Origin: Pelagibius sp. CAU 1746
Lineage (GTDB): Bacteria > Pseudomonadota > Alphaproteobacteria > Kiloniellales > Kiloniellaceae
Length of the DNA stretch: 64,000 nucleotides
NCBI RefSeq assembly: GCF_039839785.1
Contig: NZ_JBDOQT010000001.1
Location: forward strand, 558,001-622,000
Reading direction: 5' to 3'
Position numbers and translations under genes: made by a program. The stretch's first letter is position 1, and the number at the start of each line of letters is the position of its first letter. Of the stretch, positions 20,035-23,376 are shown piece after piece. The notes under the pieces are model-generated. The model was not told the origin of the DNA. It ran no database searches and worked only from the letters and a program-made list of their open reading frames with translations.

Positions 20035-20637
20035 TCAGTCGAAGTCCTGGGCCAGGGCGCCCCGCGCGTCCTCGGAGAGGATGGTCATGTGGGCGTATTC
20101 CGGGTGAGTGAAACCCAGGATGACGCGGGTTCCCGGAGCCTTGAACTTTTCGGCCTGGGCGTCGGTGAAGGGGAAGTGGATGAACTGCACCGAGGAGGCC
20201 TTGCCGTCGGCGGTGGTGCGGTCCACGTCGTCTTCCGGCGTGCCGGCGATGCGCTCGCCGTCGATCTCGAAGAAGGCCGTCTCCTCGATGCCGCCCAGCT
20301 TGGCGAGGAAGGTCTTGCGGCGCTGGGCGTCGTCGATCTCGAACATCACCGTGGCGACCAGTTCGCGGCCCTGCGGGATCAGCGGGTTGTAGGCGCTGAG
20401 CTCGTCGGCGATCTGCTCCTCGCCGCCCTTTTCGATGTAGAGCATCTCGTGGACCTGGGCCCACATGGTCTCGTAGTTCTCGAAATAAAAGGTGCAGACC
20501 GGGCCGATGTCCTGGCGGCGGAACTTCTTCTTGGCGACGAGGTCGCGGCGCAGCTCGCGGCGCTCGGCCTCGTAGGCCGCCATCGGAAGAATGTCTTCGC
20601 GGGTGATCTCTTTCTTCATGGCAAGTCCGGTGCTCAT
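20035..20637 (-). CDS. DUF3501-family protein
   Basis: A 200-residue soluble protein (MSTGLAMKKEITREDILPMAAYEAERRELRRDLV...) matching the DUF3501 family, whose biochemical role is unknown. It contains RDLVAKKKFRRQDIGPVCTFYFENYETMWAQVHEMLYIEKGG and a C-terminal GFTHPEYAHMTILSEDARGAL. There is one cysteine and no obvious catalytic motif. The start at 20637 has AGAGGAG upstream; an ATG six codons later is possible. It is the last gene after the Hdr-like protein and rubrerythrin, and this trio is a recurrent neighbourhood. A role with the Fe-S protein in peroxide or iron stress is inference. Confidence 0.8.
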   Translation of the reverse strand: MSTGLAMKKEITREDILPMAAYEAERRELRRDLVAKKKFRRQDIGPVCTFYFENYETMWAQVHEMLYIEKGGEEQIADELSAYNPLIPQGRELVATVMFEIDDAQRRKTFLAKLGGIEETAFFEIDGERIAGTPEDDVDRTTADGKASSVQFIHFPFTDAQAEKFKAPGTRVILGFTHPEYAHMTILSEDARGALAQDFD

Positions 20638-20693
20638 CTCGTTCAGCTCCTCTCTATTTGAGGCCGGCGGCGCGGGCCCGCCCCCCCTTCGGC

Positions 20694-22040
20694 CTAGTCG
20701 GCCAGGCCGTAGGCCTTGGCGAAGAGCTCGATGGGGTGGTAGCTGCGCGCGACCTCGGGTTTGTTCTCCATCTGCAGGCGGTCGATGCCCTGCAGGATGT
20801 GCTGACCCGCCAGCGGGCACTCGGAGGCCACGTAGGCCTTGCCGGCCTGCGCGGTCTGCCGTGCCGCGGTGCGCCCGACCTTGATGGCGGTGTCGAAATT
20901 CTCCTTCAGCACGCCCCAGGAGCCGCCGTGGCCCGAGCAGCGCTCGACGACCTTCACGTCGGCCTCGGGCATGAGGCGCAGCATCTCCGCGGCCTTGGCG
21001 CCGATGTTCTGGGCGCGGGCGTGGCAGGCCATGTGCAGGGCGACGCCGCCTTCCAGGGTGCCCAGGCCCTCGGCCAGGCCTTCCTTCTTGGCGATGTCGA
21101 CCACGTACTCGGTGATGTCGAAGGTATGCTGCGAGAGCTTCTTCACCGTGTCGTTGTCCGGCAGAATCAGCGGCCACTCGAACTTCAGCATCAGCGCGCA
21201 GGACGGCGTCAGCGCGACGATGTCGTAGCCCTTGTCGACCCACTCGCAGAGCTCGGCGGAGACGCGCCTGGCGGACTCGGCGACCTTCTCGATGTCGCCC
21301 TGCTCGAGCTGCGGCATGCCGCAGCAGGAGGGATAGACGACCTCGGTCTCGACGCCGTTCTTGGCCAGCACCTTGCGGGCGGCGGCGCCGATGTCCGGGT
21401 TGTTGTAGTTCACGAAGCAGGTGGCGTAGAAGGCCACCTTGCGGCCCTTGGCCGGGGCGTCGGGATTGACCGCCGGGACGTCGTCCTTGGCGCGCAGGGC
21501 GAAGGTCTTGCCGTGGAACTTCGGCAGGTCGGCCTCGCGGTGCACGTCGGCGACCTTCTCCATGATCGGGCGCGTCAGCTTGTTCTTGGTGTCGCCGGCC
21601 CAGTTCACCAGCCCCGGCGCCATGCCGGCCAGCTTGCCGTTGCGGTCGGTCTTGGTGAGCTGCTCGACGCGGCCGTCGACGTGGCCGCGCTTCCGCTCGG
21701 CGGCGCGGTAGCGCAGCATGAGGTGCGGGAAGTCGATGTTGAACTCATGGGGCGGCACGTAGGGGCAGCTCACCATGAAGCACATGTCGCACAGCGTGCA
21801 GGCGTCGACGACGGGCTTGTAGTCGGCCTTGTCGACGCTATCCAGTTCGCCGGTCTCCGACTCGTCGATAAGGTCGAAGAGGCGCGGAAAGGAGTCGCAG
21901 AGATTGAAGCAGCGCCGGCAGCCGTGGCAGATGTCGAAGACCCGCTCGACCTCGGCGTTCAGCTTGTCCCAGTCGTAGAAATCCGGATCGTTCCAGTCGA
22001 TCGGGTGACGCACCGGGGCATTCAAACCACCTTCGCTCAT
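20694..22040 (-). CDS. Heterodisulfide-reductase-related Fe-S protein (two 4Fe-4S motifs plus CCG domains)
   Basis: A 448-residue GlpC/HdrB-like protein. The N-terminal ferredoxin part has CHGCRRCFNLC (about 38-48) and CTLCDMCFMVSCP (about 81-93), the ligands for two 4Fe-4S clusters. Two cysteine-rich domains follow: CFVNYNNPDIG ... PSCCGMPQ, and ACHARAQNIG ... ERCSGHGGSWG. In the second, the usual CC is CS, so its non-cubane cluster site may be altered. Such proteins pass electrons between carriers and thiol or quinone partners. The context with rubrerythrin suggests it supplies electrons for peroxide reduction; that is inference. Confidence 0.85.
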   Translation of the reverse strand: MSEGGLNAPVRHPIDWNDPDFYDWDKLNAEVERVFDICHGCRRCFNLCDSFPRLFDLIDESETGELDSVDKADYKPVVDACTLCDMCFMVSCPYVPPHEFNIDFPHLMLRYRAAERKRGHVDGRVEQLTKTDRNGKLAGMAPGLVNWAGDTKNKLTRPIMEKVADVHREADLPKFHGKTFALRAKDDVPAVNPDAPAKGRKVAFYATCFVNYNNPDIGAAARKVLAKNGVETEVVYPSCCGMPQLEQGDIEKVAESARRVSAELCEWVDKGYDIVALTPSCALMLKFEWPLILPDNDTVKKLSQHTFDITEYVVDIAKKEGLAEGLGTLEGGVALHMACHARAQNIGAKAAEMLRLMPEADVKVVERCSGHGGSWGVLKENFDTAIKVGRTAARQTAQAGKAYVASECPLAGQHILQGIDRLQMENKPEVARSYHPIELFAKAYGLAD

Positions 22041-22262: not shown

Positions 22263-22679
<417 letters not shown>

Positions 22680-22783
22680 GGCTTTGTCTCTCCTGTAGGT
22701 GAGATTTTCGATCCTGTTATCGGGGCTTCTCCGCCTTGTCCGACGCCAGAACTGCGGCCGGAAGGCGCCCCTTCACGAGAGAC

Positions 22784-22812
22784 TAAATAGACCTCCGGCG
22801 GAGGCCTGTCAA
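22784..22812 (-). promoter_or_regulatory. Promoter of the rubrerythrin operon
   Basis: On the minus strand TTGACA (22807-22812) and TATTTA (22784-22789) are spaced by exactly 17 bp. The spacer contains a small dyad CCTCC-gcc-GGAGG. The predicted start lies about 98 nt before the rubrerythrin ATG. The Irr box begins 3 bp upstream of the -35. Confidence 0.75.
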
Positions 22813-22815
22813 TTA

Positions 22816-22832
22816 TTTAGAACAATTCTAAT
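22816..22832 (-). promoter_or_regulatory. Irr box (iron control element) upstream of rubrerythrin
   Basis: TTTAGAACAATTCTAAT matches the known Irr/ICE consensus TTTAGAA-n3-TTCTAAA at all but the last base. It sits directly upstream of the -35 box rather than over the promoter. In Bradyrhizobium, upstream placement goes with activation by Irr, so activation under iron limitation is the likelier mode here, by analogy. Confidence 0.8.
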
Positions 22833-22861: not shown

Positions 22862-23293
22862 TTATTCGCCGCGCTCATTGACCCGGATGATGACGTCGAC
22901 GCGGGCCACCTTGGCGCCGGCGGGCGCCGGCGGCAGGTTTTCGAGCCGCACCATCTCGCCCGGAATGTCCTGCAAGCGGCCGCTGTCCTCGAAATAGAAA
23001 TGGTGGTGCTCGGTGACGTTGGTGTCGAAGTAGGAGCGTCCGGACTCCACCACCACCTCGCGCAGCAGCCCGGCCTCGGTGAACTGGTGCAGGCTGTTGT
23101 AGATGGTGGCGAGCGAAACCCGCACGTTCTCGGCGACCGCCTCGGCGTGCAACTGCTCCGCCGTGATGTGGCGGTCGCAGCCTCCCGGCGCCTCGAACAG
23201 AAGCTTGGCCAGAGCCAGCCGCTGGCGGGTCGGGCGCAGGCCAGACACCTTGAGGCGCTGGACCAGCGCGCTGTAGGGACGATCCTTGGTCAT
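22862..23293 (-). CDS. irr: Iron response regulator Irr (Fur superfamily)
   Basis: A 143-residue Fur-superfamily repressor/activator. The GLRPTRQRLALAKLLFE start and RVSLATIYNSLHQFTEAGLLREV winged-helix segment are typical of Irr. The HHH cluster in VTEHHHFYFEDSGRLQDIP, the heme-sensing region of the family, is present. The N-terminal heme regulatory motif (GCPW) of Bradyrhizobium Irr is absent, as in many other members. Irr controls heme synthesis and iron genes in response to heme status. It lies upstream of the rubrerythrin operon and is divergent from fabA, a conserved arrangement. Confidence 0.88.
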   Translation of the reverse strand: MTKDRPYSALVQRLKVSGLRPTRQRLALAKLLFEAPGGCDRHITAEQLHAEAVAENVRVSLATIYNSLHQFTEAGLLREVVVESGRSYFDTNVTEHHHFYFEDSGRLQDIPGEMVRLENLPPAPAGAKVARVDVIIRVNERGE

Positions 23294-23359: not shown

Positions 23360-23376
23360 TTTGGAACAAGTTTAAA
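23360..23376 (-). promoter_or_regulatory. Irr-box-like site upstream of irr
   Basis: TTTGGAACAAGTTTAAA agrees with the rubrerythrin Irr box at 13 of 17 positions, including the CAA spacer. It begins 4 bp upstream of the irr -35, almost the same geometry as at rubrerythrin, which supports a genuine autoregulatory site despite the weaker sequence. Confidence 0.55.

Follow-up and report, generated by a model that had tools for sequence, protein, structure and literature searches.

A class-wide Irr-type box at the rubrerythrin operon of Alphaproteobacteria and its predicted control by the neighbouring irr gene

The rubrerythrin locus and its promoter box

The rubrerythrin operon of Pelagibius sp. 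CAU 1746 (Kiloniellaceae) carries a palindromic box directly upstream of its promoter, and the questions this raises are which protein would bind there and whether that protein would raise or lower expression of the operon. We analysed the 64-kb stretch of DNA that contains the locus (positions 558,001 to 622,000 of contig NZ_JBDOQT010000001.1; "the window" below, in whose numbering coordinates are given). The rubrerythrin gene (rbr; 22263..22679, minus strand) encodes an aerobic-type protein of 138 aa (Pfam Rubrerythrin, 106.6 bits) in which Pfam found no rubredoxin domain, and it is followed on the same strand by the genes for an Hdr-like, CCG-domain protein (20694..22040, minus strand; profile match), here called RFO after PMC5114695, and for a DUF3501 protein of 201 aa (20035..20640, minus strand; Pfam DUF3501, 197 bits). 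These matches bear out the identities that the initial annotation gave to the three genes, and the locus has the marks of the aerobic-type rubrerythrin system, namely a rubrerythrin without a rubredoxin domain and RFO and DUF3501 adjoining it. Of 137 loci scanned, 135 have RFO downstream of rbr and in the same orientation (DUF3501 was scored beside them in the window only). In the window the rbr-RFO intergenic gap is 222 nt; the three genes are likely to form a single transcript, whose products would presumably serve in peroxide defence.

The next gene upstream of rbr on the same strand, absent from the initial annotation, is irr (22862..23293, minus strand), which encodes an iron response regulator of the Fur superfamily (NCBIfam IrrA, 208 bits against a cut-off of 150); fabA, fabB and fabI are divergent from it. 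The encoded Irr has an HHH motif at residues 96–98, and the HxH haem motif is present in 199 of 200 homologues. The CP haem regulatory motif of the B. japonicum type of Irr, which is not present in every Irr, was found in none of 200 aligned Irr fragments. Upstream of irr itself lies a degenerate box, TTAAACTTGTTCCAA (23361..23375, minus strand), a candidate autoregulatory site. Similar elements occur in 52 of 199 irr upstream regions, mostly 59–67 nt before irr (0.15% in shuffled sequences), as counted with a motif that was selected after inspection of the data, and perhaps they serve irr autoregulation.

The box that concerns us here is the ICE-type palindrome at 22816..22832 (no strand assigned), the 17-mer TTTAGAACAATTCTAAT, with a 15-bp core at 22817–22831. 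It matches with 0 mismatches the palindrome TTTAGAANNNTTCTAA, which we take to be the Irr/ICE consensus. A search for the perfect form of TTTAGAANNNTTCTAA gave a single hit in the window and a single one in the whole 4.66-Mb genome, and forms with at most one mismatch occur at 4 distinct places in the genome (0 for a reversed-pattern control). A chance palindrome was discarded as an explanation on the grounds that the perfect form is unique in the genome and that the box is conserved with Irr across the class (below). On the minus strand the core is followed after 4 nt by the −35 hexamer TTGACA (22807..22812) and, after a 17-nt spacer, by the −10 hexamer TATTTA (22784..22789), so that the box is upstream of −35. 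The former is identical to consensus (6/6) and the latter matches TATAAT at 3/6 positions, and a sigma-70 scan called no promoter; the initial annotation's "consensus promoter" is thus accurate for its −35 element and not for its −10. The rbr transcript is predicted to start near 22777, which would center the box at about −47 and leave 40 nt between the start and the near edge of the box. A GC-rich hairpin that scored as terminator-like on the minus strand occupies the −35/−10 spacer (22789–22807), and the spacer of a sibling locus (L003) is likewise self-complementary; the hairpin may be the irr terminator.

Distribution of the box in genomes with and without Irr

Among 78 genomes of relatives 58 have rubrerythrin, and irr is upstream of rbr on the same strand in 55 of 57 distinct loci (1.4 kb off in one of them). 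A box with at most 2 mismatches together with a −35 with at most 1 mismatch is present in 48 of 56 upstream regions of these relatives, 40 of them with a gap of 4 nt. When 44 promoters of relatives were aligned, the box columns and TTGAC were near-invariant and the spacer and flanks variable; TTGAC is present in 43 of the 44, a count that partly follows from their preselection, which required a box and allowed the −35 no more than 2 mismatches.

A class-wide draw of 289 alphaproteobacterial genomes contained a rubrerythrin match in 167 and an Irr over the cut-off in 154. Upstream regions were analysed in 136 of the 167 (weaker or unlisted matches were left out), and a box no more than 420 nt from rbr, 2 mismatches being allowed, was found in 98 of 116 genomes with a strong Irr, 7 of 9 with an intermediate one and 2 of 11 with none or a weak one, compared to 1.6% in single-base shuffles; the Irr strength classes were transcribed by hand from the Irr match list, and "no Irr" for G191, G211, G279 and G292 means absence from that list. 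In 80 named loci, which overlap the unnamed ones and are mutually related like the pooled loci generally, the box accompanies an irr of the same locus in 46 of 52 cases and is present in 3 of the 28 loci that lack irr. The pairing reaches the Pelagibacteraceae/Pelagibacter, where irr and the box are present in 18 of 18 loci and the box is 4 nt before TTGAC in 17, and irr is beside rbr in SAR116 and Kiloniellaceae genomes as well. Plasmid rubrerythrins (33 records, 29 with <60% identity) were left out of these counts. The scan of related genomes proposed in the initial annotation therefore shows that the box depends on the presence of Irr, and its assignment to the Irr/ICE type is borne out by letters and distribution alike; binding is predicted from sequence, and the rubrerythrin trio is probably among the targets of Irr.

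Three observations are recorded here in their own right. One locus with irr, rubrerythrin and box (L287) is from a record labelled Gammaproteobacteria, and reflects either a mis-binned MAG or a transfer. In genus g3 of the window's family (G009, G012, G014 and others) none of 9 genomes searched has rubrerythrin and 8 have a VIT1-family gene, and the other genera searched show the reverse pattern, rubrerythrin and no VIT1; a VIT1/MbfA gene as internal contrast was dropped, since no VIT1 match was found in the CAU 1746 genome itself. Of the three other places in the CAU 1746 genome with a box of at most one mismatch, one, at positions 1501–1516 of locus L032 (G000:C1:406008-406023), has a one-mismatch Irr-like box upstream of a catalase-like gene, with an OxyR-like LysR gene on its other side (genes identified by eye from their translations); boxes with at most 2 mismatches are present in 4 of 14 family loci examined, and this is only a lead.

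Two families, Caulobacteraceae and Sphingomonadaceae (family names inferred), keep rubrerythrin in some members, and no Irr over the cut-off was found in their 56 genomes. The loci of 28 of 30 matching Caulobacteraceae and 16 of 21 matching Sphingomonadaceae genomes were analysed (weak or partial matches were dropped), and the Irr box is present in 1 of these 44. An ATMG-N7-CKAT dyad is present at rbr in 22 of 28 and 12 of 16 loci, respectively (0.9% in shuffles), or in 21 of 27 and 11 of 15 when the repeats G346 and G357 are removed; the pattern was first noticed in earlier loci, and these 44, of which 42 are new, are the check on it. In the Caulobacteraceae the dyad is mostly extended by a third half-site (18 of 22 cases) and a fourth (21 of 22), again spaced by 7 nt (background 5% and 11%). 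Four half-sites at this spacing are the OxyR pattern, so that the operon in this family mostly bears a four-part OxyR-type site. The sphingomonad dyad, ATCG-N7-CGAT (12 of 16), was not called an OxyR site because the third and fourth half-sites are mostly missing (present in 1 of 12 each). In five sphingomonad loci (L243, L244, L245, L246 and L259) a TGCGAA-N3-TTCGCA palindrome lies 23 nt upstream of that dyad. The dyad is found in only 5 of 200 irr-adjacent loci. Exchange of Irr for OxyR is not general, since only 1 of the 11 class-draw genomes with no or weak Irr has the dyad (10 are without it). If the output of the operon is conserved between lineages, peroxide would be the shared input, which would suit an Irr that represses until peroxide or haem inactivates it.

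Position of the box and direction of control

The initial annotation had taken the placement of the box upstream of −35 to suggest activation. In 200 distinct irr-adjacent regions the box is 2–7 nt upstream of −35 in 145, with a gap of exactly 4 nt in 118 of the 145; this upstream (U) class is partly circular because the promoter matrix was trained on gap-4 loci, and the S and D classes are not. A further 29 regions have no box at 2 or fewer mismatches (at least 10 of these have a weaker one at the usual place, judged by eye), the promoter call was weak in 19, and in 2 the box is far upstream. In the remaining cases the automatic call put the box inside the core promoter (L162, L179 and L280) or after −10 (L069 and L070), and 7 more boxes were assigned to core or after-−10 positions by eye (L152, L163, L165, L186, L196, L256 and L300), so the box does enter the core promoter in some lineages. 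The tree requires at least 4 shifts of position for the five automatic cases and at least 6 for all twelve, and strongly supported branches force 2 and 4, respectively, although these were quick trees with many open forks.

In 5 of 18 SAR11 loci a second box (2 mismatches) is present 31 bp downstream of the first, inside the spacer, so that the boxes flank −35, and one SAR11 locus has the spacer box only; these second boxes, which lie in AT-rich promoters, were counted as raw matches. Seven further SAR11 loci, where a box with 2 mismatches precedes the start codon by 15 nt, were excluded from the count. Occurrence on either side of −35 is more readily understood for an operator than for the site of an activator. 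The R. sphaeroides ccpA promoter points the same way: its box is about 40 nt before the mapped start, the same distance as in the window, and it was expressed 1.8-fold higher without irr under iron limitation (PMC3413700). Activation deduced from position alone was discarded on these three grounds (core-promoter boxes, SAR11 double boxes and ccpA), and of the proposal that the trio belongs to an Irr-dependent iron response the likely Irr target is supported and the direction drawn from placement is not.

We favor, with some reservation, the reading that the box serves as an operator for Irr, encoded by the gene next to it, and that this protein represses rbr-RFO-DUF3501 until relieved by haem or iron and by peroxide. 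An Irr dimer on the palindrome would cover the region abutting −35, and active Irr, at low haem or iron, would repress the operon; plentiful haem-iron, or peroxide that inactivates Irr, would derepress it, and the cell would spend iron on a di-iron/Fe-S system when it is affordable or needed. Loss of Irr is reportedly driven by peroxide. Binding, repression and relief are deduced here from published Irr biology, in which Irr acts in both directions (review, PMC7762939); at R. sphaeroides mbfA the start is within the box and expression is about 8-fold higher without irr (PMC3413700).

The opposite direction, in which Irr activates the operon during iron limitation, when iron-starved cells would suffer peroxide stress as haem catalase fails, seems to us rather unlikely. 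The regular 4-nt gap upstream of −35 could reflect contact with RNA polymerase, and the core-promoter boxes are a minority that might be lineage-specific. With a perfect −35 a promoter would be expected to do without an activator, and this feature of the window, together with the 2–7 nt range of box-to-−35 spacings, the boxes inside core promoters and the predicted iron-rich nature of the trio, argues against activation, as does the repressed ccpA at equal distance (PMC3413700). The rbr mRNA of P. ubique HTCC1062 rose 1.57-fold (P 0.025) 24 h into iron limitation (PMC2864753), which favors activation and counts against repression, as the SAR11 promoters examined (HTCC1062 not among them) bear the box. 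Irr is said to activate genes directly far more often than Fur or DtxR do, and to act one way or the other according to ICE location (PMC7762939), Brucella bhuA falls on irr mutation (PMC10374146), and most affected R. sphaeroides genes are higher with Irr than without, an effect that its authors think largely indirect (PMC3413700). The dyad in only 1 of 11 genomes with no or weak Irr likewise weakens the argument for repression from exchange with OxyR. In M. gryphiswaldense without oxygen, rubrerythrin was 2.1-fold down and a gene named perR 2.4-fold up (PMC9549626).

It is very improbable that the main protein on the palindrome is a different Fur-family member, of the Fur, Mur or PerR type, and that Irr is incidental. 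Sites of the Fur family are palindromes of similar size, and five loci keep the box although the genome has no Irr or a weak one (2) or the locus does not include irr (3). The presence of the box nonetheless tracks Irr, even in strong-Irr genomes where irr is not close by (none within 700 nt on the same strand): 6 of 8 such loci keep it, among the 8 being one with irr 1.4 kb upstream (G076) and one that ends at a contig edge (G282). It is also nearly absent (1 of 44 loci) from the Irr-less families, though 53 of their 56 genomes have a weaker Fur-family match. There is a similarly slight chance that the box was inherited along with irr and is functionally weak, the operon being effectively constitutive; the only published data set that was found shows a small response to iron (PMC2864753), which would fit this, and the near-invariant box columns amid variable spacer and flanks in the 44 aligned promoters speak against it.

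Relation to known systems and meaning

Several components were already known. The Irr/ICE promoters of R. sphaeroides mbfA and ccpA have an Irr box near the promoter and an Irr in the genome, and those of bfr and the rubrerythrin-like blr7895 (an mbfA homologue) in B. japonicum are of the same kind (PMC3413700), so that the box type and Irr control of the rubrerythrin-like MbfA are not new. MbfA is a membrane-bound ferritin (PMC3413700), unlike the aerobic-type rubrerythrin of the window, and in contrast to the known ICE promoters irr here adjoins its target, the pairing is class-wide including SAR11, and binding is predicted from sequence. The trio was described by Cardenas 2016 (PMC5114695), with the same three genes on the same strand and no rubredoxin domain; the word irr does not occur in the main text of that paper, and a regulator is proposed here for the window's operon. 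No work joining Irr to rbr-RFO-DUF3501 was found at the level of titles and abstract openings, a scope outside which the target list of Rodionov 2006 lies, and what appears new is a class-wide promoter at the rubrerythrin operon with predicted Irr control. PerR controls rubrerythrin in anaerobes. That arrangement and the rbr trio of Sideroxydans, which occurs together with oxyR (PMC7852563), resemble the window's in tying a peroxide regulator to a rubrerythrin operon, and the window differs from both in that its regulator is Irr, which senses haem-iron status.

It has been held that Irr rose to be a main regulator of iron in the common ancestor of the Rhizobiales and the Rhodobacterales, a view repeated in PMC3751524. 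The position of irr beside rbr in SAR11, SAR116 and Kiloniellaceae suggests that a narrower Irr role is older and wider than this. We propose tentatively, as a possibility that we would not yet call probable, that irr and the rbr operon are an old alphaproteobacterial pair, SAR11 included, in which Irr is a PerR-like repressor of aerobic peroxide defence that reads haem-iron and peroxide; that some Irr-less lineages (Caulobacteraceae) use OxyR instead; and that Irr's global iron role may have grown out of the control of this neighbour as its first task. A box that is merely upstream of −35 should not, in any case, be taken as a sign of activation. The predicted control would give the DUF3501-RFO-rubrerythrin system, of which the third protein is without a known role, a named regulator, and Irr and OxyR could be compared as natural alternatives at a single operon. 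It also sets a condition under which expression of the operon can be tested, in SAR11 as well, which are among the most abundant marine bacteria.
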